Shown here one piece after another: positions 1,387 through 20,804 of a stretch of 30,835 nucleotides of DNA. The notes below the pieces were generated by a model. It saw nothing but the letters and a program-made list of their open reading frames with translations, ran no database searches and had not been told where the DNA came from. Source of the stretch: a virus; the IMG/VR virus record IMGVR_UViG_3300025889_000601, positions 1 through 30,835 of that record. One strand, given 5' to 3'. The first letter of the stretch is position 1, and every line of letters starts with the position of its first letter. The translations under genes were made by a program, and so were the position numbers.

Positions 1387-1389
1387 AAG

Positions 1390-2193: not shown

Positions 2194-2194
2194 A

Positions 2195-2793: not shown

Positions 2794-2821
2794 GATAAAG
2801 TTTTAATTAGATAGTACAAAC

Positions 2822-3368: not shown

Positions 3369-4327
3369 CAAAAAATACTATCAATGTTAGACATAACTTG
3401 TTGTGTTTCAAATGTTTTATCATCTAAAGGGTTATACATACCAGACACTTTAAAAACATTGCCAGCGTTCATGTCTAGTCTAATAGGCTCATTGTAGAAG
3501 GTCGGCGCACCTCCGCTTTCCGTTTCCTTTACTTTATTTACATGTATGAGCGAAAGGTTATACAACTGCTCATGTCTTGTGTATCGGTGTACGCACCACA
3601 TGTTGTCGCATCGGGCCGCCCACTTCGCACCCCCTTCAAGGTCCGCCATCGCTAATGGCCTTGGGTGACCCTCAAGGGAATATCCCATGTATTCATCACC
3701 TTTTGAATGAAACTTACGCATAGCCTCACTTACTCCATGTGCGTTTAAAAATATGCACACGTTTTTGTTTTTGCAGAACAATCTAAAGGCGGTAGCGACT
3801 TCATAGTCATAGTCGTGAACACTTATTCCTCCAAGCTTTTTTTTGTCCTTGGAAAGACTATTGTATGGGTCTATAAGAAATCCATCAAACACTTCCTCAA
3901 TCAAGATTGATTCTGCAACTTCCAATAGTTCGTAAGCACTATATGCCTTTTTATCATTGATAAACTTAAAGTGAGCCATGACAAAGTCTCTAGCGTGGTA
4001 ATAATCCAAATCCTGAACATTGTCAATCTTATCCATCAACTTCATTGAAATCAATTTATCTATCAGAGACCACGCATTGTTCTCAGAGCTGTAAATCAGC
4101 CATTTTGTTCCATGCTTCACGGAGTAAACAAGCATAATCCAAAGGACCACTGTGGTCTTTCCTACGTTCGCGTGTCCACTTACAACTGTGAATTCATTTT
4201 TCTTTAGTCGGATGTGGTTATCAAAGTCAAGGATGTCTATTCCAAGACCCTGCTTCAGTTTACCCTTGCGCTTTTTTTCAAGCATTTCCAGGTGGTAGTC
4301 TGAGTCTATTAATCTTTCGTCTTTCAT
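3368..4327 (-). CDS. DnaB-type replicative helicase (RecA-fold domain only)
   Basis: Hexameric helicase ATPase that would unwind DNA at the phage fork. Walker A is GHANVGKTT (51-59), Walker B FLIDP (150-154, D153), and the motif-3-like strand CIFLNAHG follows (about 192-199), as in the DnaB C-terminal domain. At 319 aa it lacks the N-terminal primase-binding domain of full DnaB, as is usual for phage forms. No primase or polymerase is in the window. It overlaps the initiator gene upstream and the coiled-coil gene downstream by ATGA/TGATG, so initiator and helicase are made together. Confidence 0.85.
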   Translation of the reverse strand: MKDERLIDSDYHLEMLEKKRKGKLKQGLGIDILDFDNHIRLKKNEFTVVSGHANVGKTTVVLWIMLVYSVKHGTKWLIYSSENNAWSLIDKLISMKLMDKIDNVQDLDYYHARDFVMAHFKFINDKKAYSAYELLEVAESILIEEVFDGFLIDPYNSLSKDKKKLGGISVHDYDYEVATAFRLFCKNKNVCIFLNAHGVSEAMRKFHSKGDEYMGYSLEGHPRPLAMADLEGGAKWAARCDNMWCVHRYTRHEQLYNLSLIHVNKVKETESGGAPTFYNEPIRLDMNAGNVFKVSGMYNPLDDKTFETQQVMSNIDSIF

Positions 4328-5097
4328 ACTGCTGGTAGCATTTTATTGGTTATGGACTTCGCCTCACACGCATTTTGCAACTTCTGCTTCATGGTGAGGT
4401 TGTTAAAGAAACGCTTTACCAAAGACTTTGGAGGCGCAACGCTTTTCTCAATGCAGAAGACTGCCGCCTTGATGACGACCTCCTCTGACTGCATGGTGAA
4501 GTCTACACTGTACAACTTTTGAACTGCTGGGGGTAGTGGTCTAGACACGTCCGATTCATTTCTCTCCCATGTTCGCACCGCAGCCCTCCAGTCCCTCATC
4601 CTGTTCTTTCCCACCATCCATCCCTTGGAATCGTAAAAGTCCACGAAAGCGAAAGACATCTCTTGGCTTCTCTTCCAACCACGTTGCTCCATGTACTCGG
4701 ACACGTCCTGTTGCGATGGAGGAGAGAACCTTTTATTTCTTTCTTTTGGACTACTACTTGTAGTAGTCTTTTCTTTCTTTGTTTTGGGGAGAGGGAGTGC
4801 AGAGGGAGAGGGAACTACTTCCGGATTTTCAGTAACTTCCTGATTATCCGTAAGCGGTTTTTCAGTAAGTATGAATTCATAGACAACTGAGAATTTACCA
4901 TCAAAACGCTGCTTTTTGCGCTTGACATACCCTGCGTCTATAAGCTCCTTAAGTGCTGTTGATTGTGCATCTCTTCCTTCGGTAGATAGGCTTTTTATCT
5001 TCTCAAAGGACATTGCGGTCTCCAATAATAGAAACGCCAAGCCCTTTGCTCGCAGGCTTAAAGTTCTATCATTAGAAATTTTCCGAATTTGTTCCAT
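4324..5097 (-). CDS. Replication initiator / helicase-loading protein (winged helix)
   Basis: Three parts. Residues 1-75 form a winged helix-turn-helix (LSLRAKGLAFLLLE ... ALKELIDAGYVKRKKQR) like phage and plasmid initiators. Residues 78-125 are a P/T/S/K-rich linker. Residues 126-257 contain a segment common in phage primosomal proteins (FVDFYDSKGW, then DWRAAVRTWERN). The role, binding the origin and bringing in the helicase encoded just downstream, is inference from domain order and position. The linker DNA carries one copy of the 37-base dyad found twice at 16.6 kb, an arrangement like lambda O, whose gene contains the origin. Confidence 0.75.
   Translation of the reverse strand: MEQIRKISNDRTLSLRAKGLAFLLLETAMSFEKIKSLSTEGRDAQSTALKELIDAGYVKRKKQRFDGKFSVVYEFILTEKPLTDNQEVTENPEVVPSPSALPLPKTKKEKTTTSSSPKERNKRFSPPSQQDVSEYMEQRGWKRSQEMSFAFVDFYDSKGWMVGKNRMRDWRAAVRTWERNESDVSRPLPPAVQKLYSVDFTMQSEEVVIKAAVFCIEKSVAPPKSLVKRFFNNLTMKQKLQNACEAKSITNKMLPAV
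4835..4871. repeat. 37-base dyad repeat, copy 1 (inside initiator gene)
   Basis: Imperfect inverted repeat with half-sites ACTTCCTGA and TCAGTAAGT around a CCG-TAAG-CGG centre. It matches two copies at 16,642-16,678 and 16,684-16,720 at about 29 of 37 positions. A further half-copy (CCGGATTTTCAGTAACTT) abuts it at 4821-4838. It encodes the PLTDNQEV part of the initiator linker, so here the DNA serves both protein and, probably, binding site. Likely an initiator-binding iteron. Confidence 0.6.
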
Positions 5098-5181
5098 AAA
5101 AATTTGCCAATCTTTAAAAATGTTATAACTTTGAATTGTGCTTCAGTTCAGTGCAATGTATTGAAGGATTAGGGTAGAGAG

Positions 5182-5208
5182 TAGGGGGCATAGCCCCCTA
5201 TTTTTTTT
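5182..5208 (+). terminator. Intrinsic-terminator-like hairpin, plus-strand sense
   Basis: A perfect 8-bp stem TAGGGGGC-ATA-GCCCCCTA is followed by T8 on the plus strand, the textbook form for rightward transcription. Both flanking genes are on the minus strand; in that sense the hairpin has eight A before it and CTCTCTACC after it, so it should not terminate well. It lies in the only gap (about 110 bases) inside the replication block, between the 3' end of the OB-fold gene and the initiator start. Confidence 0.7.
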
Positions 5209-5515
5209 ACACTAGCCGAATGGTTCTCATTACAAGGTTAGTCCAATACTCGTCTTTACTGACGTTGTATTTGCCTCGTATATATCCACTAACGACTATT
5301 TTGTCTCCAACTCTAACCGCGTCAAGAAGGACTGCGTTTTTGTTGTATGCAGTAATCTTCAATGGTTGCTCTTTAATAGTCCCCTTTGAATCTGCTATTT
5401 GGTTATTGATAATAAAGTCAACAAGGTTGACCATGTTTCCATCGCCCTTGTTCACATCGGTCTCATTAACCTTTCCAACATATATTCCTTCCGCAGTGAA
5501 CTTTACATCTTTCAT
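5207..5515 (-). CDS. OB-fold, ssDNA-binding-like protein (102 aa)
   Basis: The size and strand pattern of a single OB fold: KFTAEGIYVGKVNETD, then NLVDFIINNQ, QPLKITAYNKNAVLLDAV, the loop VGDKIVVSGYIRG typical of SSB and related domains, and a final NLVMRTIRLV. Phage proteins of this type bind ssDNA during replication and recombination. It lacks the acidic DDxPF tip, which instead occurs on the 79-aa protein ending at 2554. It overlaps the YqaJ exonuclease gene by ATGA, matching the usual exonuclease plus ssDNA-binding pairing. Confidence 0.7.
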   Translation of the reverse strand: MKDVKFTAEGIYVGKVNETDVNKGDGNMVNLVDFIINNQIADSKGTIKEQPLKITAYNKNAVLLDAVRVGDKIVVSGYIRGKYNVSKDEYWTNLVMRTIRLV

Positions 5516-6525
5516 GTCTTTAAATTTAGTCTCAACTGAGTCCGATAAGTAACTGAACCTTTGTCTCCAAAGTTAATGACACTTGCACCCATATTCAAAA
5601 TAGCCTTTTTAAGCCTGTTTTTAGCGTCTCTCGCCTCACTTTCGGCCTCTTTGGCAATGTCGTTAAGTCTTTCAACCTCTAACGCCATTTGATACATTAT
5701 TTCATCACCCTCTATGACCATCTCTTTTTCTCTGCGTTTTGCATAGTCGGATAGAAATGATTCGTATGGTTTGCTTTGTTCTTTGAAAAGTGTTTCAGGC
5801 TCGTATATGTACGCCTCGTTTATCTTCTCATCATCGGTGTCTAAATACGAAAGACCTCCTTTAGCCTCTACAATACGCTCATGAAACTCTTGTATTTGGG
5901 GATAAATCTTATTCCAAAAATTATCATTGCGCTCAATGACATGAACATTCCATTGATTAGAGTCTACTATTATACATAGAACACCGTAATTAAGCTCAAG
6001 CAACTGCATGTAGGCAGTCAACTGAACCAGGTAACTGGGGTTTATACCGTTTTCCCAAAGTCTAACTGCCTGGCCCGACTGGTATTTAATCTCCAGTACG
6101 CCGTAATCTTCTCTTCCCTGCAGTCTAACAATGCCATCAATGTTTGCATGAACCTCCGGAATGTTTTCGTTGAAGAAAGTGGCGTGTCGTTGCCGAACAA
6201 TATTTATCTCCTTCTTGTTTCTATAATTATCAAGGAACTCTTTAGGATTTTCTACGTTATAGTATTTGAACAAACTACGGATGTTTGATTCTAACTCTCT
6301 TCCCATCATCATGGGAACACTGTCAAAGTCACCCTTGTTATAGAGTCCAAGCTTTTCGTAGAACAATTCTATGTTTGACTTCCATCGGTTAAGACCAATG
6401 CAAGTTCCCACATCAGAGCCTCCTAAAGTGTTTAGCGATTTACGAAACTCCTCCCATTGTTTTCTTGTCATTTGGGAGGTATTTACGGCAGTAATGTGGC
6501 TCGGTAAAGATTTATTAGTCCACAT
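5512..6525 (-). CDS. YqaJ-type recombination exonuclease
   Basis: Lambda-exonuclease-fold nuclease that resects dsDNA ends for recombination. Signatures in order: LGGSDVGTCIGLNRW (34-48), MMGRELE (73-79), NIDG with D130, VLEIKYQSG with E145 and K147, and QLTAYM with Q168. The last 100 residues are a charged coiled coil and a small C-terminal domain. At 337 aa it has the normal length of phage YqaJ proteins. The pairing with an OB-fold gene (ATGA overlap) and a possible annealing/OB protein upstream fits a two-component recombination system. No RecT/Erf protein is evident in the window. Confidence 0.88.
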   Translation of the reverse strand: MWTNKSLPSHITAVNTSQMTRKQWEEFRKSLNTLGGSDVGTCIGLNRWKSNIELFYEKLGLYNKGDFDSVPMMMGRELESNIRSLFKYYNVENPKEFLDNYRNKKEINIVRQRHATFFNENIPEVHANIDGIVRLQGREDYGVLEIKYQSGQAVRLWENGINPSYLVQLTAYMQLLELNYGVLCIIVDSNQWNVHVIERNDNFWNKIYPQIQEFHERIVEAKGGLSYLDTDDEKINEAYIYEPETLFKEQSKPYESFLSDYAKRREKEMVIEGDEIMYQMALEVERLNDIAKEAESEARDAKNRLKKAILNMGASVINFGDKGSVTYRTQLRLNLKT

Positions 6526-6526
6526 A

Positions 6527-6940
6527 TCACTCCCCGCTTAAGACATAATGTTCCAATCGCTTTGCGTAATCAATGACATCTTCAACAACGCTTTGCCTAT
6601 TAGCAAAATATTCACTCGCACACTTAATACATGTTTGACGAATAATAGAAACGTCTTTGTTTGTCGTTGCAGTCACACTTGGTTGGGGGGCCGCCGCTGG
6701 GGGTTGAAAAAATGCGGAGGTTACTTGAGCTGTAGACATAGGCTGTTGCGTGGCAGACACGACTTTTGCTGTGCGTGCTTTTGGGTTTGTGATTTCTAAT
6801 GTAATAGACTCCCCTATTTGGTGAGGAAAGTTCTGCGTCTTTTTGTAAACAGAATACTTCTGGTTGTCAATGACGACTTCGTGTCTAAACATATCACGAA
6901 ATGGCTCGGAGTTTACCGACTGAATGATTCCACTAATCAT
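6527..6940 (-). CDS. Putative ssDNA-binding / recombination accessory protein (137 aa)
   Basis: Residues 1-60 form a small beta barrel-like domain (MISGIIQSVNSEPFRDMFRH ... GESITLEITNPKART). A P/A/Q-rich linker (65-93) follows, then a C-terminal helical segment starting KDVSIIRQTCIKCASEYF. The last pattern, (I)xRQxxxKxAxE, recurs at the C-terminus of many phage proteins next to exonucleases and SSBs. I infer a ssDNA-binding or annealing accessory role from layout and position one base upstream of the exonuclease; I cannot name the family with certainty. Confidence 0.55.
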   Translation of the reverse strand: MISGIIQSVNSEPFRDMFRHEVVIDNQKYSVYKKTQNFPHQIGESITLEITNPKARTAKVVSATQQPMSTAQVTSAFFQPPAAAPQPSVTATTNKDVSIIRQTCIKCASEYFANRQSVVEDVIDYAKRLEHYVLSGE

Positions 6941-7891: not shown

Positions 7892-7922
7892 TAAAGATAA
7901 GGAATTATTCCGACTGCCCAAG
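7892..7922 (-). promoter_or_regulatory. Early promoter with spacer palindrome (P-D)
   Basis: On the minus strand: -33 CTTG (7922-7919), a 19-base spacer, -7 TATCTTTA (7899-7892). The spacer holds CGGAATAATTCCT, the palindrome seen at the same place in four other promoters. It overlaps the 3' end of the upstream 65-aa gene and drives the DUF3846-like gene. It matches the Bacteroidota consensus TTTG/TAnnTTTG at 10 of 12 informative or near-informative bases by eye. Confidence 0.7.
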
Positions 7923-8102
7923 TATAGTTTCCTTAAGAATCTTAAGTTCTTCTATATCGGTACTGCCTATGGCTAAAGCCAAGTGAATCATAAGGAAGGC
8001 ATCTCCTTCTACCTTAAGTTTGTCTTGATAGACTGCTCTATAAGTCTTATCATCAAGATATTGCTTACCATTTTTGCGGATTATTTTAACTGAAATCCCC
8101 AT
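7905..8102 (-). CDS. Small hypothetical protein (65 aa)
   Basis: The product (MGISVKIIRKNGKQYLDDK...) is a small alpha/beta protein with a helical, acidic end. The ATG lies within the last codons of the preceding gene (17-base overlap). No family is recognised. Confidence 0.6.
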   Translation of the reverse strand: MGISVKIIRKNGKQYLDDKTYRAVYQDKLKVEGDAFLMIHLALAIGSTDIEELKILKETILGQSE

Positions 8103-8247
8103 GGTCGTCGTATTGATTCATTTTAGACACCGCACTATAAAACCCTCGGTCTTTGCAAATGAACTTATGTTCAAGTGCGGCTTTTCCATAGCCTTGTGAT
8201 TTCATTCGGATATACATTTCAACAAGGTGTTTGTCGCGATTATTCAT
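8086..8247 (-). CDS. Small basic hypothetical protein (53 aa)
   Basis: The product (MNNRDKHLVEMYIRMKSQGY...) is basic and helical, with SQGYGKAALEHKF resembling a helix-turn-helix but too short to assert. Its ATG overlaps the stop of the upstream gene (ATGA) and its 3' end overlaps the next gene by 17 bases. It fills what would otherwise be a 141-base hole in the operon. Confidence 0.6.
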   Translation of the reverse strand: MNNRDKHLVEMYIRMKSQGYGKAALEHKFICKDRGFYSAVSKMNQYDDHGDFS

Positions 8248-8465
8248 GACCATTCTTCTTCTTGATTATACAATTCATAACGGATTTCCTTCGGGAGGTC
8301 GGAAACTTTAACAAAGTTGTAGATTTCATTGTCTATTTCCTTTGTGTCTTGCTCGGTAAACAAGAGTATATCATTTGTTGCACCCCATCTTTGTAAAGAT
8401 GTAGAACTGATTTCACCAATCTTATATGACATTACATACAAGTGGTCTAATTCATTCATTTCCAT
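8244..8465 (-). CDS. Small acidic hypothetical protein (73 aa)
   Basis: The product (MEMNELDHLYVMSYKIGEIS...) is acidic and probably alpha/beta. It starts four bases after the upstream stop; its TGA overlaps the next ATG. No family is recognised. Confidence 0.6.
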   Translation of the reverse strand: MEMNELDHLYVMSYKIGEISSTSLQRWGATNDILLFTEQDTKEIDNEIYNFVKVSDLPKEIRYELYNQEEEWS

Positions 8466-8469
8466 AACT

Positions 8470-8721
8470 TCAAGGATATAAAGTTGGTATTACATCGTAA
8501 TCATCATCGGTGAACTGAAAGAGGCTTCCGCCATCATTCCCTTCATCATCAGCAGACACAACGCAAAGCGTTCCATCGTTAAGTATGAAACAAATGGGGC
8601 GTTTATACCAACCCATGAGTTCCATCTCGGAGTCGTTAAGGTATCGCACTTCCACAATACGCTTTCCCACAAGGCTAACCCTTGCTTTTGCTGACCATTC
8701 ATTTAAGATTTGTTCTTTCAT
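8470..8721 (-). CDS. Small hypothetical protein (83 aa)
   Basis: A beta-rich acidic protein: residues 17-60 read GKRIVEVRYLN, WYKRPICFILNDGTLCVVSADDE, like a small half-barrel, followed by an acidic tail. The leader CAAATTTGAATT before the ATG is of the A/T-rich type. It is the first gene after an 84-base gap with a strong hairpin, so it may have its own transcript. No family is recognised. Confidence 0.65.
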   Translation of the reverse strand: MKEQILNEWSAKARVSLVGKRIVEVRYLNDSEMELMGWYKRPICFILNDGTLCVVSADDEGNDGGSLFQFTDDDYDVIPTLYP

Positions 8722-8744
8722 AATTCAAATTTGTTTTTAAAGAA

Positions 8745-8765
8745 GGGGGGTGCGCTACTCCCCCC
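8745..8765. other. G6/C6 hairpin between early genes
   Basis: GGGGGG-TGCGCTACT-CCCCCC can form a 6-bp all-GC stem in a gap between two minus-strand genes. In neither direction is it followed by a clean T-tract, so it is not a standard terminator. It could mark an RNA processing or stability site downstream of the 52-aa gene, or part of the leader of the 83-aa gene. Confidence 0.45.
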
Positions 8766-8805
8766 ATGTTGTCTAACAAAATAACCTAATCATCAGCGCA
8801 TTATC

Positions 8806-8964
8806 TTACTTCAAAAGATTATTCAAACTTTCGTTTGCTAATCTGCAAAATCGTTCCGCATCGTCTTTGTTGTTAAAACATCGGTATACACTCGCATCTT
8901 CACCACTATCATCAACTATGTAATAGAGGTCTACGGATTCATCGTAGTCTATTTTAAACTTCAT
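8806..8964 (-). CDS. Small acidic hypothetical protein (52 aa)
   Basis: The product (MKFKIDYDESVDLYYIVDDS...) reads as two strands and a helix (NNKDDAERFCRLANESL), a compact beta-beta-alpha layout with two cysteines. Its ATG overlaps the upstream TGA (GAATGAAG). No family is recognised, but the composition and the overlap support a real gene. Confidence 0.6.
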   Translation of the reverse strand: MKFKIDYDESVDLYYIVDDSGEDASVYRCFNNKDDAERFCRLANESLNNLLK

Positions 8965-9203
8965 TCAAATAAATCTTCGGGGTTAGGAAAGTTTCCTCTT
9001 CGTTGCGCAAGAATGACATCATCACTATATGCCCTTAACCACTCTCGGCCTTTAGACGCAAGTGCTTCATTCTCCATGTAGACTTCTTCGTTAAGAAGCA
9101 TGAGAGCGTGCTTGTATCTTAAGTACGCCCATAGATATTTGTCATAAGCCCTTGGGCTTATGATTCGGTATAATCCTCTGCGGATAGATTTTAATAGATT
9201 CAT
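8961..9203 (-). CDS. Hypothetical protein (80 aa)
   Basis: A basic, helical N-terminal part (MNLLKSIRRGLYRIISPRAYDKYLW) and an acidic C-terminal end. The gene contains a 9-bp perfect inverted repeat with a 2-base loop (CATAAGCCC-TT-GGGCTTATG, 9143-9162) in the codons for ISPRAYD. No family is recognised. Confidence 0.65.
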   Translation of the reverse strand: MNLLKSIRRGLYRIISPRAYDKYLWAYLRYKHALMLLNEEVYMENEALASKGREWLRAYSDDVILAQRRGNFPNPEDLFE

Positions 9204-9215
9204 TGTTCAATAGAT

Positions 9216-9737
9216 TTAATCTTCACACACAATAAGCGATTCAGTTTCGGAGTCTAAAGTGTCTATGAAATCTTCATCAACAAACTCATAGTCTGCTTTA
9301 TCCCAAGCATACTCTCTTCTATCATCATCAGTCATTTGTTCCCATAAATATTTTGGAATCTTTATTTCATCCTCAAACCACCTTCTTACTGATACAAGTT
9401 CGCTATGCTTAAATTCTATTGTGAGTATTTGTAGGTCTTTATCGCAACAAGGACAATAGTCATTGGCGTGCGATAGTCCTCCATCTCCAAAGGTTGCTCT
9501 AAACGGAATGACTTGTAGTTCACAATTCTCACATAGTGTTGTGTATACGCTTTCTAATCTATAATTCAAGTAAACTCCTTCGTTACCGCAAACACCTAAT
9601 ATTTCATTCTTTAGGGTTATCAATTCATCGCCTTGCTCTTTACTGAAAATCCCTTTTTTAAATTGTCGCGACTTGTCTGCAAGTGTTTTCTTTACTGAAT
9701 TGAAAACTACTTTCATTAGTTTATGCTCGTATGCCAT
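9216..9737 (-). CDS. Zinc-ribbon hypothetical protein (173 aa)
   Basis: A central zinc ribbon is visible: C69/C72 (CENC) and C94/C97 (CPCC) separated by a beta-rich loop. The N-terminal 60 residues are helical and basic; the C-terminal 50 are very acidic, with a probable helix (WEQMTDDDRREYAWDKADYEF). The ATG forms a TAATG overlap with the upstream gene. The ribbon suggests nucleic acid or protein binding. No family is recognised. Confidence 0.65.
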   Translation of the reverse strand: MAYEHKLMKVVFNSVKKTLADKSRQFKKGIFSKEQGDELITLKNEILGVCGNEGVYLNYRLESVYTTLCENCELQVIPFRATFGDGGLSHANDYCPCCDKDLQILTIEFKHSELVSVRRWFEDEIKIPKYLWEQMTDDDRREYAWDKADYEFVDEDFIDTLDSETESLIVCED

Positions 9738-10213
9738 TACAATCCAAGTTTAGACTTAAGTAAATCACTGCTGACCAAATCAATATTCTCTTCAAGCTCT
9801 TGAATGTCTTTCTTGTGTTGAGCATCAATCACCATGTCTACGCCAATGACAAAAGTTATGTTCACAAGAAAGGTTCTGCGCAATGCTTCCTCGTAACTGA
9901 CATCTTCGTTGTTTATTGCCGCCCCATAAGAATTAACTATCAGTTGAGCGTAGCCATCGGATAGCATTACCTTTGACATGATGTTTGGATTCTCAATAAA
10001 GTCAAGGTGCTTCATCTTAAAGATGTGTTCAAATAGTTGAGCATGGGTGAGCATGGAATGCGGCAATAAACTTCTGTAGTCGTCTTTATTCTCATCGCTT
10101 TCATCTTGTGCTAACTCGTTTACTAACTTGGTAAGCATCATGCCGAATGCGGCATAGAAAGCCTTCTGCTCGTTGTTCTCAAGGGATTCAAGAAAATTTG
10201 CTAACTCATTCAT
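9737..10213 (-). CDS. Helical hypothetical protein (158 aa)
   Basis: Predominantly alpha-helical and acidic, soluble, without a signal peptide. A palindrome promoter ends 31 bases upstream of the ATG, so this gene heads its own transcript covering the genes down to at least 8.8 kb. It sits next to the AAA+/DUF7192 pair but is on a separate promoter. No family is recognised. Confidence 0.65.
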   Translation of the reverse strand: MNELANFLESLENNEQKAFYAAFGMMLTKLVNELAQDESDENKDDYRSLLPHSMLTHAQLFEHIFKMKHLDFIENPNIMSKVMLSDGYAQLIVNSYGAAINNEDVSYEEALRRTFLVNITFVIGVDMVIDAQHKKDIQELEENIDLVSSDLLKSKLGL

Positions 10214-10243
10214 GTTGTTTTAATTAAAGGATTAAGGATAGGA

Positions 10244-10274
10244 TTAAGTTACGGAAAAATTCCAATGTTCCAAA
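10244..10274 (-). promoter_or_regulatory. Early promoter with spacer palindrome (P-E)
   Basis: On the minus strand: -33 TTTG (10274-10271), a 19-base spacer, -7 TAACTTAA (10251-10244). The spacer contains TGGAATTTTTCCG, one base from a perfect CGGAA-N3-TTCCG. It drives the 158-aa gene, whose ATG is at 10213. It also lies directly behind the 3' end of the 73-aa membrane protein gene. Confidence 0.7.
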
Positions 10275-10496
10275 TTATTTTTTAAGAAACATTTTTCTAC
10301 AATAGATATATATAGCAAGAAGGGAAACACCATTAAGAACATTCTTGGTAGTGTCCACGCTTCGTTGGTCTACTTTGACCACCTTATGGTGCTTGGCATT
10401 TGCTACGGCATTGTCTACGAATCTCTTACAAGATTCAACACCGAACAAAGCCAAGACCACAATAGTCCAAAGGGGCAGTTTGTTAAAGGATTTCAT
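10275..10496 (-). CDS. Small membrane protein (73 aa)
   Basis: One clear hydrophobic segment near the N-terminus (LPLWTIVVLALFGVESC, residues 7-23), a basic middle, and a second moderately hydrophobic stretch (VLNGVSLLAIYIYC, 53-66), so one or two membrane spans. It overlaps the DUF7192-like gene by 14 bases and so is probably translated with the AAA+ set. Function unknown. Confidence 0.65.
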   Translation of the reverse strand: MKSFNKLPLWTIVVLALFGVESCKRFVDNAVANAKHHKVVKVDQRSVDTTKNVLNGVSLLAIYIYCRKMFLKK

Positions 10497-11349
10497 TTAC
10501 TTGGTCAAGTATTTTCTGCGCACTCTTAACGCAGTCATCAATGGTGTATAGTTCAAGGTCGGATGCGGAAGGGATGTGTATCACATTTGTGCGCCCATAG
10601 ATTTCTTTAATGGCGTGTATCCCTGCAAGGTCGGCCTGCCTTGTAGACTTACCATAGCCGTCATCTACCCAACCCCATCGGTAATAGTCATAGGACTGGT
10701 CTCGGTTCTCCGCAAGGCCGAACCAAAGTCTACGGAAGGAAGATGGGTGCATCATGCCGCCCAACTTGTGTACTTGAAGTCGTTCATTGAAACGCTTAAG
10801 TGGCACAAGGCAAGTGTAGAACGACAAGCCTTTGTCAAGGTTTGGAAAGTAACCCTTAACATTTGCGCTTTGAACCCAAATGATTTCCGTTTGGATGTTA
10901 GACTTTGCACACAATTCAGCTATTGCTGAAAGCATGGCGGCCTTGTTAAAGAAGATGTTCGTTTCAACACCCGCATTCTCACCGATATTGATGGCAAGGG
11001 TAACTCGTTTAGACTTTTCACTCTTGCGCTTCCAGGACTTAAGTGTCTTGGGTAAGCCCATCGTGTATCGGTCTATGGAAAGTTTACCGCTTGTGTCTGC
11101 GAATACTCTTCGCATCTTAACACCATTGGCTCTGCCAATTATATTCTTGGCAAGACCTTGCATCTTTTCGGGACTCCAACCATTGGTTGCTACATCGGTT
11201 GCTTCTTCAAAGGTTTTTGTTCCCGTAAAGTCCTCTTTATTCCTATGGCTTGACCTTGTGCGACTGCTACTGCGAATACATTGTTCAATGTATTCTCTTG
11301 GGTGACTAAACTCCATGACTGCATTGTCTTGAATGATATGTGATTTCAT
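10483..11349 (-). CDS. DUF7192-like protein, partner of AAA+ ATPase
   Basis: The order of motifs matches DUF7192 proteins of phages as I know them. An N-terminal EFSHPREYIEQ is followed by FTGTKTFEEATDVATNGW, then VFADTSGKLSIDRYTMGLPKT. A Rossmann-like half (KRVTLAINIGENAGVETNIFFNKAAM, then LCAKSNIQTEIIWVQSA) looks von Willebrand A-like, with no clear MIDAS DxSxS. The next gene upstream is a MoxR-like AAA+ ATPase; in cellular MoxR/CobST systems the ATPase works with a vWA protein. The pairing therefore suggests an ATP-driven remodelling or metal-insertion complex with an unknown target. Confidence 0.7.
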   Translation of the reverse strand: MKSHIIQDNAVMEFSHPREYIEQCIRSSSRTRSSHRNKEDFTGTKTFEEATDVATNGWSPEKMQGLAKNIIGRANGVKMRRVFADTSGKLSIDRYTMGLPKTLKSWKRKSEKSKRVTLAINIGENAGVETNIFFNKAAMLSAIAELCAKSNIQTEIIWVQSANVKGYFPNLDKGLSFYTCLVPLKRFNERLQVHKLGGMMHPSSFRRLWFGLAENRDQSYDYYRWGWVDDGYGKSTRQADLAGIHAIKEIYGRTNVIHIPSASDLELYTIDDCVKSAQKILDQVNEIL

Positions 11350-11373
11350 GATTAGGATATTTAAGTGTTAGAC

Positions 11374-12813
11374 TTATTGCTCAACAATTACATTGGCTTT
11401 CTCACAAAGGGTGCGGATGTCATTGTCATCAAGACCTTTGAACACAAGACTATCAAGAACTTGCTTGACGGATAGACCTTGAGCGAATAGGAACGGCCCG
11501 AACAATGCGGCTCGTGGGGAGATAATAATCTCCATGGCCAACTTGGTGGCGGCTTTAGACAAGGACTCAACAATGTCTACAAAGGCCGTGTGGTTAGGTC
11601 GTGAAGCACGAACCCCATCCCAATCGTAATCCCAATACATAGTTTGGAAGCGGTCTTTAGTCGCGCCATCTAAAGGGTTACGACCAACATACAAGCCATC
11701 TGCGCCATTGCCAAAGGTATTGGCTGCTGCTATAAGCACGAAGTCGGGGTGTCGGTCAACGACCTTGTCGGGGAAGGCCGCCATCGGACTGCTGATTGCG
11801 GCATTCAAGGCCGTAAGAGCATTGGGGTTGGAAGCATCTAATTCATCAAGAAGGAACACACCACCGAACTCATACATCTTACGGAAGTCAGTAGACTTGT
11901 AAAGTTTATCAATGGGGCTGATAAACCCAAAGCCTTCGCTACGCTCGGACTCTTCGTTCATAGACATCATCGCATACTTATCTCGCCAATCATCACCGAA
12001 TAGGTGTTGTGCTATAAGTCGGGATGCGGTGGTCTTACCACTACCTGCTGGGCCAACCAGCATGGGGTATAGACCATCTTGGTCTACGGATTGTGCTTCC
12101 TTAACGGCTCGGCATCTTGCTAACAATTCTTGGAATAGTGGATGCTCTCGTTTCTCGCCTAACTTAACGACCTTCGGTTGTCCTTCGGGTATCTTAAGTT
12201 CCTCTTCAACCTCTTCCATCTGCTCTTCAACACAAGATAACTTATCAGTTATATCTTGAACCATGTCCTTAATTCCATCTCGTTCTTGCGTTGCCTCATC
12301 TAAATCAGCAAGTAGTTCATCAACCAAGTCGGATAAAGTTTCTTCAAGACCTTTCTCCTTGATAGCATCAATCTTGCTTTGTTGCTCTTGAATCTGCTTC
12401 TCAAGGGCATCCATCTTCGCTTCAAGGGAAGATTTCTCTTCAGTAAAGGACTCTTTCGCATCCTTAAGTTCTTGCAATTTCTCGGTTAGTTCTTGCTTTG
12501 ATGGGTTGCCTGATAGTTTAGTCATTTCGGGTGAGGGATTTGGGTTAGTTGAATCGGATTTGCTATGGTCTTTAGTAGACTCTTGTTGTGTGTCAAGCCA
12601 TTGGCTTAAAGAATACTTATCACCGCCATGGGTATAGACCATGATTGTGGCTTTGTTCTTCTCGGCTCTTGCTATGGCTTGTTCCTTGGTCAGTCGGCCC
12701 TTGGCCTCGTGGAGTTTAGACGAGCGCATGGCCTCGTCAAGGTTGGAGGAATAGAATGTTTGGCCATCTGCCCTAACAACGCAGAAGTCCTTGATTTTGA
12801 GTGATTTGCTCAT
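11374..12813 (-). CDS. MoxR/CobS-like AAA+ ATPase with coiled coil
   Basis: Residues 1-75 are a small domain unlike known families, 78-105 a low-complexity linker and 106-210 a long acidic coiled coil. The AAA+ core is at 215-479: Walker A GPAGSGKTT (254-262), Walker B FLLDELDA (320-327), sensor 1 AAANT with N365, and arginine finger R388 in TKDRF. The core belongs with the MoxR/CobS type that remodels partner proteins in a ring. It has its own palindrome promoter 34 bases upstream and is followed by the DUF7192-like gene after 24 bases. The long coiled coil may dock the partner or form filaments. Confidence 0.85.
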   Translation of the reverse strand: MSKSLKIKDFCVVRADGQTFYSSNLDEAMRSSKLHEAKGRLTKEQAIARAEKNKATIMVYTHGGDKYSLSQWLDTQQESTKDHSKSDSTNPNPSPEMTKLSGNPSKQELTEKLQELKDAKESFTEEKSSLEAKMDALEKQIQEQQSKIDAIKEKGLEETLSDLVDELLADLDEATQERDGIKDMVQDITDKLSCVEEQMEEVEEELKIPEGQPKVVKLGEKREHPLFQELLARCRAVKEAQSVDQDGLYPMLVGPAGSGKTTASRLIAQHLFGDDWRDKYAMMSMNEESERSEGFGFISPIDKLYKSTDFRKMYEFGGVFLLDELDASNPNALTALNAAISSPMAAFPDKVVDRHPDFVLIAAANTFGNGADGLYVGRNPLDGATKDRFQTMYWDYDWDGVRASRPNHTAFVDIVESLSKAATKLAMEIIISPRAALFGPFLFAQGLSVKQVLDSLVFKGLDDNDIRTLCEKANVIVEQ

Positions 12814-12846
12814 GTTTTTGTATTTAAGAATTAGGATTAAGGATTA

Positions 12847-12877
12847 CAATAGTACGGAATATTTCCGATATTCCAAG
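12847..12877 (-). promoter_or_regulatory. Early promoter with spacer palindrome (P-B)
   Basis: On the minus strand: -33 CTTG (12877-12874), a 19-base spacer, -7 TACTATTG (12854-12847). The spacer holds CGGAAATATTCCG. It drives the AAA+ ATPase gene (ATG 12813). The -7 differs from TAnnTTTG at one base. Confidence 0.72.
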
Positions 12878-12910
12878 GGGGGAGAATTGATTGTGTTCAT
12901 ATAAGGGATA

Positions 12911-13513
12911 TTATTTAGATTTTCCAAGTTGTTCTTCAATCTTACCAAGTTCTATCTTGCCAAGTTCTTCAATCTCATGCCATGCATTATGACTTGTATC
13001 AAAATTCATTTCACTCTCTTCTTTTAGTTCTGCTTTTGGGTTGAGAAGGTGTTGTTCAATCTTACGCAGTCTTTCCTCAAGACGCTCAACCTCTTCTCGT
13101 AGGTTGTAAATGTGTGTGTAAAGACGCTTGTATGTAAGTTTCGCTATACGCTCGGCATCTTCCGTGTAGACTTTCAATCGCAATTCACACTCTATCTCTT
13201 CAATAGAATCTTTAATAGATTCTATGGTGTCATATTCTATGTCGCGGTTTGTTAAAGCATCACCGACCATGTCATCAATGTCTATGTTGTTATTGAAATA
13301 GCTATCTACTGAATCTTCAAAGTCGTAATCTTCAATTTGCCGATTAACTTCTCGTTCAATGTAGCATTCCAAGGCTTCTTGCATCTCATCCTTAAGGTTG
13401 TCAAGTTTAAATAGACTTGTGAATATGTTTTGCCATTTGCTCTTGATTCGGTTGGCCTTGCGGCTTACATCGTGCATCGTTGGGAGGTTCAAGGTTAATG
13501 TGATTGTTTTCAT
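12911..13513 (-). CDS. Acidic coiled-coil protein (200 aa)
   Basis: An N-terminal basic helix (about 1-45), then a long, very acidic stretch with D/N/I-rich segments (DSYFNNNIDIDDMVGDAL), then a coiled coil at 90-160 (REEVERLEERLRKIEQ). The C-terminus carries a short tandem duplication, LGKIE-LGKIE-EQLGK, visible in the DNA as well. The leader ends AAATCCTAATC-ATG, as in two other early genes. No family is recognised; structural or scaffold-like behaviour is possible. Confidence 0.65.
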   Translation of the reverse strand: MKTITLTLNLPTMHDVSRKANRIKSKWQNIFTSLFKLDNLKDEMQEALECYIEREVNRQIEDYDFEDSVDSYFNNNIDIDDMVGDALTNRDIEYDTIESIKDSIEEIECELRLKVYTEDAERIAKLTYKRLYTHIYNLREEVERLEERLRKIEQHLLNPKAELKEESEMNFDTSHNAWHEIEELGKIELGKIEEQLGKSK

Positions 13514-13537
13514 GATTAGGATTTGAGATTTAAGGGA

Positions 13538-13669
13538 TTAAAGGTTAGAGAAATAATAGTCAAGTTCCATGACGAGGGTAACGAATCCGTAAAGGATTGT
13601 AATAACTGCGAACACGATAGCGATTCCCACCACTATGGTGCTTAAGAGGTTCAATGCTTTTGTCATCAT
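13538..13669 (-). CDS. Small single-span membrane protein (43 aa)
   Basis: One strong hydrophobic segment (about residues 11-34, STIVVGIAIVFAVITILYG) between a short basic start and an acidic-aromatic end (ELDYYFSNL), so N-in/C-out insertion in the inner membrane is likely. Two adjacent ATG codons (13669 and 13666) overlap the upstream TGA (GGATGATGAC). Small early phage membrane peptides often alter host processes or block superinfection, but nothing here identifies which. Confidence 0.65.
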   Translation of the reverse strand: MMTKALNLLSTIVVGIAIVFAVITILYGFVTLVMELDYYFSNL

Positions 13670-13878
13670 CCTTCGGTCATGTAATCAAGTTCCATGTTTG
13701 CCATGTCAATCTCTTCGGGTGTTAGACTACCTTCAAGGTAGTAGAACTCATGTCCATCGGAATAGATTGGGCCACGCTTAATAGCGATTGCCTCTCTTCC
13801 AATGGCTTCGTTGTCTTCTTGAATCTTACCTTGAACATCTTCAAGGGTTCCGTTCATGTATGTCCAAACTATTTGCAT
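13666..13878 (-). CDS. Small hypothetical protein (70 aa)
   Basis: The start ATG 13878 (MQIVWTYMNGTLEDVQGK...) is chosen because it follows the leader AACCCCTTAATCCCCAAAGCA, matching other early genes; the frame continues upstream only to a TTG at 13923. The protein is acidic and ends in the helix TPEEIDMANMELDYMTEG. The gene contains a perfect 8-bp inverted repeat with a 1-base loop at 13,726-13,742. No family is recognised. Confidence 0.6.
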   Translation of the reverse strand: MQIVWTYMNGTLEDVQGKIQEDNEAIGREAIAIKRGPIYSDGHEFYYLEGSLTPEEIDMANMELDYMTEG

Positions 13879-13903
13879 TGCTTTGGGGATTAAGGGGTTG
13901 TTG

Positions 13904-14140
13904 TTAATGTTCGGTGTAATCAATCGTCACAATAATGGTCTTACCATTATTTTCATCTATCCATTGTCTTAAGGATTCGTAGTCGTAGAAGTAACCAGAA
14001 TCTAATTGGAGGCATGGTTCATCCCAACTTGTCTCCAATTTAGGGGCATCTTCATACCCTGCATGGATGACTTTAAAGATTTCGTATCCATCATCGGAGA
14101 ACACGAAGTCTATCTGAACAAGTTCTTTGTTGCTTTTCAT
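13904..14140 (-). CDS. Small acidic hypothetical protein (78 aa)
   Basis: A beta-rich, acidic protein (IDFVFSDDGYEIFKVIHAGYE ... YFYDYESLRQWIDENNGKTI). Its gene carries a 9-bp inverted repeat with a 3-base loop (AATAATGGT-CTT-ACCATTATT, 13,931-13,951). Four-base overlap with the upstream gene. No family is recognised. Confidence 0.65.
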   Translation of the reverse strand: MKSNKELVQIDFVFSDDGYEIFKVIHAGYEDAPKLETSWDEPCLQLDSGYFYDYESLRQWIDENNGKTIIVTIDYTEH

Positions 14141-14436
14141 GGTTCTGATTTTAATAAAGACTTTAAGGGATTAGGGTAGCCAAGCACTTGTTCTTCAACA
14201 TCATCAAACAAGTCGCAAATTCTTTGAGCATTGCTTTTAAGTCTTTGCATTTTGTCGCTTACACTACTTGAGTGTGTGTTGGGGCTTTGGTGATACCTTT
14301 CCCCTAACTCTTCTTTAAGAAGTTTGTCTATTGAAAGCCAAATCGTGTTACTCTCAAGTAACATCGTTGACATTTCGTGACTTAAGTATGCGTAGACTTG
14401 GTAGGAGTCTTTAGCATCTTCAATTTTACTTGCCAC
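14137..14436 (-). CDS. Helical hypothetical protein (99 aa), GTG start
   Basis: The start codon is GTG at 14436, inside the end of the upstream gene (AGTGGCAAGTAA, 11-base overlap); ATG 14373 is an alternative. The product is mainly helical (SYQVYAYLSHEMSTMLLES ... KMQRLKSNAQRICDLFDDV). No family is recognised. Confidence 0.6.
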   Translation of the reverse strand: MASKIEDAKDSYQVYAYLSHEMSTMLLESNTIWLSIDKLLKEELGERYHQSPNTHSSSVSDKMQRLKSNAQRICDLFDDVEEQVLGYPNPLKSLLKSEP

Positions 14437-14581
14437 TTTGCTTAAGGTTTTGATTTAAGTAGGCCACCACTTTGGTGGCTTCATCTTCACTACGGCATGG
14501 TTTAATCGTTACCATGTCGGGTGCTTTCCGCACCTCCCATTGGAGGATGTCGGGGTTGAATGCTTTAAAGAATTTAGACAT
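14426..14581 (-). CDS. Small hypothetical protein (51 aa)
   Basis: The product MSKFFKAFNPDILQWEVRKA... is a small alpha/beta domain with a C-terminal helix (SEDEATKVVAYLNQNLK). Its ATG overlaps the upstream stop by 8 bases (AATGTCTAAA) and its end overlaps the next GTG start. The gene contains a 7-bp inverted repeat with a CTT loop at 14,463-14,479. No family is recognised. Confidence 0.6.
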   Translation of the reverse strand: MSKFFKAFNPDILQWEVRKAPDMVTIKPCRSEDEATKVVAYLNQNLKQSGK

Positions 14582-14774
14582 TGAGAATTGTTACTTGAAT
14601 TGTACCATCGGGAAGGTTACCTTGTCCTAAAGACAAGGAAAGCCATCGCTTTGCGCCATCTATGGTTCGCGCTTTTACCCGATAAATTCGGGTAAGGTCG
14701 GCACTCTTAACGCCACGATAGTCGTAGCAAGGGCTTGGTACTGCAAAGCAGTACTCTTTCAGTCTAACTTTCAT
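14574..14774 (-). CDS. Small basic hypothetical protein (66 aa)
   Basis: A beta-alpha-beta layout: KVRLKEYCFAVPSP, then LTRIYRVKARTIDGAKRWLSLSL and a final TIQVTILNV. The ATG is in a TAATG overlap with the upstream stop. Three perfect inverted repeats (7-8 bp stems, 3-5 base loops) lie in this 200-base gene. No family is recognised. Confidence 0.6.
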   Translation of the reverse strand: MKVRLKEYCFAVPSPCYDYRGVKSADLTRIYRVKARTIDGAKRWLSLSLGQGNLPDGTIQVTILNV

Positions 14775-14965
14775 TACTTAACAAGTTTAAGGTTGTAGTA
14801 ACTCGCAACATAGTTGATGTGCTTTTGCGTTGTGGCTGACCACCAACCATGTTGGTGCAGTTCATCTCCCTTAATGGTTGCCACTATAGTGGTGTAGGAA
14901 ATGATGTCGTTACCAACCCTTGAAAGGGTTGCTTTGTAACGAGGAAACTTAAATGTTTCAGTCAT
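14774..14965 (-). CDS. Small basic hypothetical protein (63 aa)
   Basis: A short beta-rich protein (FKFPRYKATLSRVGNDIISY ... GWWSATTQKHINYVASYYNL). It is the first gene behind a palindrome promoter; its leader is CCCTAATCTTAAACCTTAAATC. The gene holds three inverted repeats, among them CAACCCTT-GA-AAGGGTTG at 14,914-14,931. No family is recognised. Confidence 0.6.
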   Translation of the reverse strand: MTETFKFPRYKATLSRVGNDIISYTTIVATIKGDELHQHGWWSATTQKHINYVASYYNLKLVK

Positions 14966-14994
14966 GATTTAAGGTTTAAGATTAGGGTTAAGTT

Positions 14995-15026
14995 CAAGGG
15001 CTACGGAATTATTCCGTATACCCAAG
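14995..15026 (-). promoter_or_regulatory. Early promoter with spacer palindrome (P-C)
   Basis: On the minus strand: -33 CTTG (15026-15023), a 19-base spacer with the perfect palindrome CGGAATAATTCCG, and TAGCCCTTG at the -7 position, which is one base longer than TAnnTTTG and so the weakest -7 of the set. It overlaps the end of the 55-aa gene and drives the 63-aa gene. Confidence 0.6.
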
Positions 15027-15176
15027 GATGTACTTGTCATCCTTAAGGATACACTTGGAAACACGATAGCACTTCTTAAAGGTGTTGTTCCCCTTATTGG
15101 GAGTCAGACGATTGAGGTATGCCTCAAACTGAAGGTCAGCAGTTGTTGTGTCTTTAGACAGGATGAATTGTGCCAT
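15009..15176 (-). CDS. Small hypothetical protein (55 aa)
   Basis: The start ATG 15176 (MAQFILSKDTTTADLQFEAY...) follows the leader ACCCTTTAATTCCC; a TTG start further upstream would run through a terminator hairpin and translate the leader itself, so it is rejected. The product is basic, with two cysteines, and ends in KDDKYILGYTE. It lies between a terminator and promoter P-C. No family is recognised. Confidence 0.6.
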   Translation of the reverse strand: MAQFILSKDTTTADLQFEAYLNRLTPNKGNNTFKKCYRVSKCILKDDKYILGYTE

Positions 15177-15203
15177 GGGAATTAAAGGGTTTAAGGTTAA
15201 GGT

Positions 15204-15229
15204 AAAAAGGGAGTGCATTAAGCACTCCC
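15204..15229 (-). terminator. Intrinsic terminator of the first early gene
   Basis: On the minus strand GGGAGTGC-TTAAT-GCACTCCC forms a perfect 8-bp stem followed by T5. It lies 9 bases after the stop of the 135-aa gene, so transcripts from promoter P-A can end here or read through to the 55-aa gene. Confidence 0.8.
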
Positions 15230-15237
15230 CTTTAGGG

Positions 15238-15645
15238 TTAGACCAACTTGGCAATGGCCTCAAGGATTAGCGAATCCGTAAGGATTGTGCCACGAAGGCA
15301 CAGCAGTGCCTCAATCTTGCTTCGCAAGTCAAGGTCGCTCTTCACCTTCGGTGAGGGCTTGAACACCTTCGGTGTTGGTGCCGACACCTTCGGTGTCTTA
15401 CTGCCTACGGCAGTCGCTCTCCGCTTCCTACGGAAGGGCTTCTTGACCTTGTCCTCCGTAAAGGAGGCAAGGTAGGCTTCAACAAGGGCCTTGTCGGTCT
15501 TTGACCGAACCCTTGAGAGCAAGAGTTCGTAGAACTCTTTGACCGAAGCGGTGCGTTGGACTTTGCCCGACTTGATGTCGGCTAACAGAGCAGTGTATCC
15601 CTTAAGGGACTTGACGGCCTTGGCCATCTCTTGTGCATTCTTCAT
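15238..15645 (-). CDS. Basic early protein with TPKV/SPKV repeats (135 aa)
   Basis: A helical N-terminal part (1-65), a strongly basic linker (KKPFRRKRRATAVGS) with three degenerate repeats TPKV-SAP-TPKV-FKP-SPKV (about 85-100), and a helical C-terminal part. The basic, proline-spaced repeats resemble histone-tail-like DNA-binding linkers; that is inference. It is the first gene of the early arm behind the strongest promoter, so probably expressed first after infection. Its DNA holds about a dozen perfect small inverted repeats in 270 bases and is visibly richer in G+C than its neighbours. Confidence 0.7.
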   Translation of the reverse strand: MKNAQEMAKAVKSLKGYTALLADIKSGKVQRTASVKEFYELLLSRVRSKTDKALVEAYLASFTEDKVKKPFRRKRRATAVGSKTPKVSAPTPKVFKPSPKVKSDLDLRSKIEALLCLRGTILTDSLILEAIAKLV

Positions 15646-15697
15646 GATGATTAGGATTAAAGAAGAATTAGTGTTCAGCGACTTTCACCGAACGGCA

Positions 15698-15729
15698 CAA
15701 AGATACGGAAAATTTCCGACATATCCAAA
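15698..15729 (-). promoter_or_regulatory. Main early promoter with spacer palindrome (P-A)
   Basis: On the minus strand: -33 TTTG (15729-15726), a 20-base spacer, and a perfect -7 TATCTTTG (15705-15698), an exact fit to the Bacteroidota sigma-A consensus. The spacer holds CGGAAATTTTCCG. The start codon of the 135-aa gene lies 53 bases downstream. Best match of the five related promoters. Confidence 0.82.
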
Positions 15730-15738: not shown

Positions 15739-15758
15739 TAACTGAACAAGTTCAGTTA
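15739..15758. promoter_or_regulatory. 20-base palindrome, possible operator
   Basis: TAACTGAAC-AA-GTTCAGTTA is a perfect inverted repeat with 9-base arms, 10 bases upstream of the -33 element of promoter P-A. Position and symmetry fit an operator or activator site for a dimeric regulator. It is a different sequence from the spacer palindrome. Confidence 0.6.
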
Positions 15759-16059: not shown

Positions 16060-16650
16060 ATGAACATTAGTAAAGCTAAACTTGGCACAGGGCGCCGTTT
16101 TATTGTTGATGTAGGCAGAGACCCATACACCAGGGAGAAAGTCCTTCAGAACGGCTCTAAATTGTTTCTAGACCCATCTTACCGACCCACATGGCATGCA
16201 AAGATTGACGGCATCGTCCATGCGCCATATAGGGGGTCTGATGTGGAGAGGGGAGAGAAGTTGTATTTCCATTATACATGTGTGGAGATGGATGACTCAC
16301 TTCAGTATGTAGATGGTGATTTGTATTTGATGGTACCCTCTGACCTATGCTTTTTTGCGGTTAGCTCAAATGGGCGCGTTAGAACGCTTAATTCTCACAT
16401 AGGTATACTGCCATATAAAGAAGAGCCTAAAGTGCTCTCTAATGGCCTGTATGCTACCTCAAACGCAATTAAGAGTGAGAAACAGGGCTTGGTTATTTAC
16501 CATTCAGATAAAAGTATGGTTGGCAAGAAAGTGTTATTCCACCCACGCAATGCCTTTGAAAACGAAATAGAGGGGCAGAAATTGTACGTCATGCAAGAAG
16601 ATGACTTACTTGCAGTCATTGACGATTGGTTGGATGAATCAACTTCCTGA
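16060..16650 (+). CDS. Tandem GroES-like co-chaperonin (196 aa)
   Basis: Two GroES-like beta barrels in one chain. Domain 1 (about 1-101) has VERGEKLYFHY ... VDGDLYLMVPSDLCFFAV. Domain 2 (about 102-190) has the better match: GHIGILPYK-like IGILPYKEEP, a mobile-loop-like KVLSNGLYATS, then VGKKVLFHPRN ... IEGQKLYVMQEDDLLAVID, which follows the GroES ending (G-V-F ... I-L-E-D-D-I-L-A-V-I). E. coli GroES is 97 aa; this is twice that, like plant Cpn20. T4 gp31 shows that phages use co-chaperonins to fold capsid protein with host GroEL; a similar role is inferred here. It stands alone on the plus strand next to the putative origin. Confidence 0.75.
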   Translation: MNISKAKLGTGRRFIVDVGRDPYTREKVLQNGSKLFLDPSYRPTWHAKIDGIVHAPYRGSDVERGEKLYFHYTCVEMDDSLQYVDGDLYLMVPSDLCFFAVSSNGRVRTLNSHIGILPYKEEPKVLSNGLYATSNAIKSEKQGLVIYHSDKSMVGKKVLFHPRNAFENEIEGQKLYVMQEDDLLAVIDDWLDESTS

Positions 16651-19266: not shown

Positions 19267-19487
19267 TTCTTAGAACGGTTGCGGACCTTGCTTATAAAAC
19301 GCTTTTCTGCATGGTCATAGTCTAAACCATCACCATTGCCATACGTTCCAGCATCACGGTTTTTCTTATTTAAAAAAGCACGGTACTTCTTACGCTCAGC
19401 AGTACTGTGGTACTCCGTGTCGTATTTCTTCTTGAGCTTTTTAGCCTTAGGATTCTTATCGTAATATTCTTTACTCTTACTAGCCAT
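19263..19487 (-). CDS. Small very basic protein (74 aa)
   Basis: The product (MASKSKEYYDKNPKAKKLKK...) is K/R-rich through its first half, then has DAGTYGNGDGLDYDHAEKRF, a glycine/aspartate segment seen in related small phage proteins. Overlaps of 4-8 bases with both neighbours. Perhaps a DNA- or RNA-associated virion protein; no function is known to me. Confidence 0.62.
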   Translation of the reverse strand: MASKSKEYYDKNPKAKKLKKKYDTEYHSTAERKKYRAFLNKKNRDAGTYGNGDGLDYDHAEKRFISKVRNRSKK

Positions 19488-19716
19488 TTCTGTATCTTGC
19501 TACTTTTTTTGCTATTTTTTTAGGCTGTGCAACAAACTGCTTTCCTTTACTGTTCCCAGTAGCCTTTGCTTTATTTGTTGCTGCTTTTTCTGCTGGTGTC
19601 AATGCTTTCCATGCAGCCTTTGGTAAATATCTTTTTTTACCTTTTGACGGAGAGCCATCAGAAGTGGTCCACTGTTGCTCTGTCCATTGTTTTAGACTTT
19701 TCTGTGGAGCTTTCAT
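19480..19716 (-). CDS. Small basic protein, DUF5872-type segment (78 aa)
   Basis: The pattern KSLKQWTEQQWTTSDGSPSKG ... RYLPKAAWKALTPAEKAATN and KGKQFVAQPKKIAKKVARYR recurs in small basic proteins of many phages and of some giant viruses. I associate it with the DUF5872 group, though the exact family label should be checked. Very basic, no cysteine. Located with three other tiny basic genes between endonuclease VII and the lysis genes. Confidence 0.62.
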   Translation of the reverse strand: MKAPQKSLKQWTEQQWTTSDGSPSKGKKRYLPKAAWKALTPAEKAATNKAKATGNSKGKQFVAQPKKIAKKVARYRNG

Positions 19717-20032: not shown

Positions 20033-20034
20033 AA

Positions 20035-20784: not shown

Positions 20785-20804
20785 CAACAACAAATTTAAA
20801 TTAT

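Follow-up and report, generated by a model that had tools for sequence, protein, structure and literature searches.

The leftward early arm of a viral contig from the IMG/VR database (record IMGVR_UViG_3300025889_000601, 30,835 bases, analysed here over its whole length as the window) carries five predicted promoters with a palindrome beside the -7 element, and this raises the question of whether these palindromes are operators which unite the early genes in one regulon, and which protein would read them. As far as can be judged from their sequences, the sites look like true operators, and the single regulon proposed in a first-pass annotation of this DNA is supported for the window. The likeliest reader is an 82-aa protein with a predicted Cro/CI-type helix-turn-helix (HTH) fold, although a host repressor of the SOS response has to be weighed against it.

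Five early promoters with a palindrome adjoining the -7 element

All five minus-strand sites listed in the first-pass annotation are present where it had placed them (Table 1). Four sites have a spacing of 19 from the 4-base -33 element to the TA at -7, and the remaining one has 20, as had been described; the 5-3-5 palindromes are perfect in three sites and have one outer mismatch in the other two. The 8-base core GGAA-N3-TTCC is perfect at every site (40/40 bases), and the end of the box is always 1 nt from the TA. The outer box bases are C on the left in 4/5 sites and G on the right, also in 4/5. With TTG and TA in all five, the predicted promoters fit the Bacteroidetes sigma-ABfr pattern, for which the consensus is TTTG at -33 and TAnnTTTG at -7 (PMC7366714), with the complete TAnnTTTG being found in site 5 only and the -7 element of site 4 containing an extra base.

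The core GGAA-N3-TTCC occurs seven times in the window, compared to 0.565 expected (200 dinucleotide shuffles, maximum 3), and CGGAA-N3-TTCCG three times, compared to 0.03 expected; GGAA is also the commonest arm among the 4-3-4 palindromes of the window. A TTGG upstream combined with a TA 1 nt downstream has a background of 0.0016 of positions, but accompanies five of the seven boxes, the remaining two (2236 and 8986) being inside coding sequence. The core is invariant in the five promoters whereas the last four bases of the -7 element differ between sites, so selection seems to be for a factor other than sigma, and on this comparison the palindrome is more strongly constrained than the adjoining sigma contact.

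Table 1. Boxed promoters and associated features in the window.
Feature	Position	Strand	-33	Core (position)	-7	Full sequence	Context
Site 1	7922-7892	minus	CTTGG	GGAATAATTCC (7901-7911)	TATCTTTA	CTTGGGCAGTCGGAATAATTCCTTATCTTTA	Predicted to drive the DUF3846 / HTH / HNH / RecE / SSB-like / replication operon; ATG at 7864
Site 2	10274-10244	minus	TTTGG	GGAATTTTTCC (10253-10263)	TAACTTAA (weak)	TTTGGAACATTGGAATTTTTCCGTAACTTAA	Ahead of 158-aa gene 9737-10213
Site 3	12877-12847	minus	CTTGG	GGAAATATTCC (12856-12866)	TACTATTG	CTTGGAATATCGGAAATATTCCGTACTATTG	Ahead of AAA ATPase gene 11374-12813
Site 4	15026-14995	minus	CTTGG	GGAATAATTCC (15005-15015)	TAGCCCTTG (poor)	CTTGGGTATACGGAATAATTCCGTAGCCCTTG	Ahead of small-gene cluster from 14965
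Site 5	15729-15698	minus	TTTGG	GGAAATTTTCC (15707-15717)	TATCTTTG (perfect)	TTTGGATATGTCGGAAATTTTCCGTATCTTTG	First early promoter, ahead of 135-aa gene 15238-15645
Half-decayed second box	7922-7932	minus		GGAAACTATAC (6/8)			21 bp upstream of the site 1 box; aligns with GGAAACTTTCC of the relatives
Antisense promoter-like site	5103-5133	plus				TTTGCCAATCTTTAAAAATGTTATAACTTTG	Between SSB-like and DnaD-like genes; unboxed
Predicted Cro/CI-type HTH protein, 82 aa	7254-7502	minus					Second gene behind site 1

Displacement of the palindrome in related phages

Relatives of the phage were first found by a scan for the box within a promoter and were recognised as relatives afterwards by protein identities with the window (RecE 59%, single-stranded DNA-binding (SSB)-like protein 70%, DnaD-like protein 43%, helicase 56% and resolvase 76%), while three further relatives, one of 61.9 kb, were found by aligning the 82-aa HTH protein. 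Synteny with the window is extensive. At the promoter orthologous to site 1 (relatives L228, L232 and L235), CTTG and the -7 element TATCTTTG are kept, and an intact box (GGAAACTTTCC) adjoins the -33 element, with its core 22 nt from the TA as opposed to 1 nt in the window, which places it 21 bp further upstream, where the window has a half-decayed second box. The counterpart of site 5 in L232 and L235, with orthology assigned by position, reads TTTGGAAA(T/G)TTTCCGA...CCGTATCTTTG, and here the box is 11 nt from the TA, compared to 1 nt in the window, an upstream shift of 10 bp. The shifts of 21 and 10 bp correspond to two and one helical turns, which fits a protein needing one face of the DNA, and we read the displacement as operator turnover on a single helix face, although two instances could also arise by coincidence. 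Since the palindrome has moved while the -33 and -7 elements stayed fixed, it is probably an operator rather than a preferred spacer or an element of the MerR type.

The position exactly within the spacer, as claimed for the window, is not kept in the relatives, where the box overlaps or abuts the -33 element one or two helical turns upstream. The first-pass annotation had also said that relatives with the -33 and -7 elements but lacking the palindrome would speak against it; in the relatives the palindrome has indeed moved out of the spacer, but it is still at the promoter. A further boxed promoter of the relatives is antisense and located between the SSB-like and DnaD-like genes (L228 6111-6141; L235 15621, minus strand), with the box GGAATTATTCC at the location of the unboxed TTTGCCAATCTTTAAAAATGTTATAACTTTG of the window. 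In its five-member form, the proposed regulon is thus specific to the window lineage, as the relatives have boxes only at two sense early promoters and at this antisense promoter.

In five relatives at a greater distance (MW202828, Panino, elemoA, phi38:1 and phi18:3, with just 50 kb covered for each of the last three), no such set of -33/-7 promoters with boxes is present. The early region of MW202828.1 (L219, 43745-55154) contains 14 exact copies of a 16-bp palindrome, GTGTCGTTAACGACAC, and two imperfect ones, often 15-50 nt ahead of start codons, and this looks like a different repeated control element with a similar job. The IMG/VR phage contig L205 has two promoters 1.9 kb apart (12-42 and 1882-1912) with GGGAANNNTTCCC in the same register, and the class of box may be wider among Bacteroidetes phages. 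The first IMG/VR match (L005) was a chance occurrence within a gene, and was rejected.

A predicted Cro/CI-type protein as candidate reader

The 82-aa HTH protein had been suggested as candidate reader, and it remains a good candidate, with its predicted Cro/CI fold, its conservation and its location behind a boxed promoter. The gene would be under its own operator, being the second behind site 1, and the relatives have a boxed promoter at the same place. Its identity with the counterparts in the relatives is 52% (whole alignment) to 55%, and it is syntenic in every relative covering its locus; the residue preceding DRLYK is S in the window and Q in the relatives. When the relatives are compared with one another, the protein has 94% identity over 84 aa, compared to 64% for the neighbouring DUF3846 protein, and its codon changes are 26 synonymous versus 5 non-synonymous, by which measure it is under strong purifying selection. 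A two-sequence AlphaFold2 (AF2) model gave a predicted local distance difference test (pLDDT) score of 86.8 and a predicted template modelling (pTM) score of 0.76, while a single-sequence model (pLDDT 49.6) was useless. The top Foldseek matches were mostly Cro/CI-type regulators (C.BclI, C.AhdI, SinR, 434 repressor and lambda CI), with LexA-like proteins also present, and the orthologues weakly match a PHROG transcriptional repressor family (E 0.004). An S24/CI repressor encoded by the phage itself was considered as well, but none was found in the window or its relatives, with Peptidase_S24 and tyrosine integrase giving no match even at E = 1 in seven contigs including one of 62 kb (serine integrases were not searched).

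We consider that the palindromes are operators for one dimeric protein and that the most likely reader is this phage protein, repressing the early arm, and give this reading an even chance of being correct. The early promoters would be read by the host sigma-ABfr RNA polymerase, and all five would fire on entry. The 82-aa protein would then be made from the operon behind site 1 and accumulate, until the dimer bound between, or at, the -33 and -7 contacts excludes the polymerase, and this would repress both the early arm and the protein's own operon, giving a timed early burst with autoregulation. We infer the binding, the repression, its timing and the identity of the reader, and predict the Cro/CI fold from the structural model.

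Several observations weigh against this reading. Sites 2-4 lack boxed equivalents in the relatives, and the operators are not identical, with C..G as outer bases at most sites of the window and T on the left in the relatives. The Foldseek E-values are weak (best 0.02-0.07), no significant family match was found for the HTH protein by sequence (best Pfam E 0.026), and a profile comparison with a host LexA-like protein, a user of the same class of box, detected no similarity. Finally, the missing tyrosine integrase is compatible with other routes to lysogeny, and most of the contigs are partial.

Likeness to the host SOS box and alternative explanations

The first-pass annotation did not recognise the site as a known operator, but the core corresponds to the Bacteroidetes SOS box GGA-N5-TCC, which has been published (PMC8565304), and has the same register to the -7 element as in host SOS promoters. 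The non-canonical LexA proteins of Bacteroidetes are S24 repressors with a CI-like N-terminal domain, and bind GGA-N5-TCC in Flavobacteriaceae, as proven by electrophoretic mobility shift assay (EMSA), with binding lost upon changes in the half-sites or the spacing and kept upon dyad-adjacent changes (PMC8565304). For comparison we used 26 host boxes from one Bacteroidota family (the family of genome G067, which may not be that of the phage's host), located upstream of umuC, dnaE2, umuD, the SRAP gene and the S24 regulator. The core GGA-N5-TCC is shared by all five window sites and the promoters of the relatives, and the gap of 1 nt between box and -7 element, present at 5/5 phage sites and shifted in the relatives at sites 1 and 5, is also found in 9/10 of those host boxes that precede a -7 element. 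A further likeness is that some promoters carry boxes in tandem. In the host locus L196, an HTH_3 and S24 regulator with four boxes is divergent from SRAP, and the antisense promoter of the relatives (TGGAATTATTCCATATATTTG) has 21 nt identical to the host promoter between these two genes. The outer bases differ, being mostly C..G in the window and mostly T..A in the host boxes (A/T on both sides in 24/26), and the box here sits on early genes of phages in which no S24 protein was found. Because the operator shares its sequence class and its promoter register with the Flavobacteriaceae SOS box, hosts which use that box are likely to show cross-talk between their LexA-like repressor and the phage operators, and recognition of the same boxes by such a host protein would make the early arm responsive to DNA damage as well.

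The main rival to a phage-encoded reader is that the host non-canonical LexA is itself the reader, which would make the early promoters SOS promoters, kept repressed while the cell is healthy and released upon DNA damage. Such a switch would be pseudolysogenic or of the carrier-state kind, comparable to the one in phage GIL01. The core identical to an EMSA-proven box, the common register at the host umuC, dnaE2, umuD and SRAP promoters and the 21 nt shared with the L196 promoter all point in this direction, as does a second GGA-N5-TCC at the first early promoter of the relatives, since tandem boxes are usual in hosts. However, the window departs from the host boxes in its outer bases, the exact phage form CGGAANNNTTCCGTANNTTTG hardly occurs in the order of G067 (two single matches in 398 genomes), and a phage without detected lysogeny genes gains little if the host represses its replication genes. 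We consider this explanation unlikely. It is very improbable, in our view, that the palindrome belongs to an extended sigma-ABfr promoter, that is, a preferred spacer of strong promoters with no separate regulator. Similar promoters do precede housekeeping genes (tRNA, ffh, rpoZ and pfk) in some Bacteroidales and other Bacteroidota, and the spacers of one Prevotella metagenome-assembled genome (MAG) favour C at -13 and G adjoining the TA, but the motif is rare (3/296 other Bacteroidota genomes), the five exact palindromes of that MAG compare to 0.017 expected from independent positions, and the window has poor -7 elements where the palindrome is perfect; moreover, the relatives keep -33 and -7 elements from which the palindrome has moved away.

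A quite improbable alternative is that the box binds an activator (C-protein-like or MerR-like) which compensates for weak -7 elements, the early promoters then being turned on rather than off. Weak -7 elements do occur at several sites (TAACTTAA, TAGCCCTTG), and in the structural comparison the HTH protein came closest to the C proteins of restriction systems, which activate and repress depending on position. The box, however, adjoins the -7 element within the polymerase footprint, and the relatives with a box at or upstream of the -33 element have the perfect -7 element TATCTTTG. MerR-type dyads are centred in an over-long spacer, unlike the box described here, which is off-centre (centre at ~13 of 19), and the protein is not predicted to be a MerR protein. 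We rejected a MerR-type mechanism on this geometry and on the shift of the box in the relatives, and the initial suggestion that a bound dimer might reshape RNA polymerase in this sense is disfavoured by the same two features and by the predicted Cro/CI-type reader.

We also considered CGGAA-N3-TTCCG as a phylum-wide regulon, and rejected it given the 3/296 genomes outside the Prevotella MAG and the 2/398 in the order of G067; several of the matches inspected stand before housekeeping genes. In the Prevotella MAG (HAN021, G001; L009, L022, L024, L066 and L070-L073), the five promoters have exact CGGAANNNTTCCG before TAnnTTTG and precede unrelated genes (HIT protein, ABC-F, PfkB, MORN protein and one more). 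No S24 match was found in this MAG, and the reading we offer is a regulator or promoter class of its own. In a Bacteroidales MAG, palindromic spacers common to two outward -7 elements form symmetric divergent promoters (G008:C8:32173-32201 and G008:C174:774-802).

Gene content of the window and other features

Our analysis places the virus with phages of Bacteroidetes; its terminase and portal proteins are ~24-32% identical to those of Cellulophaga, Flavobacterium, Tenacibaculum and Maribacter phages. The leftward arm encodes RecE, the SSB-like protein, DnaD-like and DnaB-like replication proteins, a resolvase, an AAA ATPase and many small genes, while packaging and structural proteins are encoded by the long rightward genes. 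A 196-aa protein with a GroES-like domain at its C-terminus is encoded at 16060-16650 on the plus strand, and GroES and GroEL are also encoded by relatives in the phage group. Two near-identical contigs (L006 and L007) span only 629-6799 and 19376-28019, and no near-identical contig was found over the five sites; protein-pattern scans for relatives (ATPase, DUF7192, RecE and terminase) gave nothing useful for the sites, or near-identical fragments only.

An 8-2-8 inverted repeat (AACTGAAC-AA-GTTCAGTT, 15740-15757) lies ~10 bp upstream of the -33 element of site 5, and is possibly a further operator. A leader like TTAATCCTAATC shortly ahead of the ATG is common to early genes (minus strand, at 15660, 13523, 12846 and 10246), and also occurs without a box (gene 12911-13513). 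It may aid translation, Bacteroidetes mRNAs being without Shine-Dalgarno sites.

Comparison with other systems and significance

The arrangement resembles the Cro/CI operators of lambda and 434 and those of restriction-modification C proteins in its small protein of predicted Cro/CI fold, its palindromic operator over promoters and its presumed autoregulation, but differs in having five promoters across 8 kb, a Bacteroidetes promoter architecture, and no integrase or CI partner found. One operator repeated at many sites is known from the conserved inverted repeats of Streptomyces phage phiC31 and the stoperators of mycobacteriophage L5; the likeness lies in a single operator sequence at many early promoters or sites, whereas these phages are temperate and use other sequences and other repressor families. 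An operator within the promoter spacer is also found in phage P22, where Arc blocks polymerase from between the -35 and -10 elements, but Arc is a ribbon-helix-helix protein acting at a single locus. In the temperate Bacillus phage GIL01, SOS boxes in phage promoters are served by host LexA plus gp7, a small phage protein working on the same operators, but gp7 acts on LexA while the protein described here is predicted to bind DNA (PMC4551915). In the literature we found no account of how early genes are controlled in Bacteroidetes phages of this sort.

What the window offers is a defined regulon of five promoters, together with the core of its operator, a candidate for the reader, and natural variants in which the operator has moved by whole helical turns. 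Should the same box be read by both the phage protein and the LexA-like repressor of the host, phage timing would be linked to the host's DNA-damage response. An unlikely but wider scenario is that a stand-alone Cro-like phage protein reads the operator class of the host SOS repressor, and early in infection both times the phage's own promoters and holds down host SOS genes; such phages might then be related to those from which the CI-like repressor came that became the Bacteroidetes LexA. A CI-like phage repressor has been proposed as the origin of this LexA (PMC8565304), and the shared box, if true, would bear on that phage origin.

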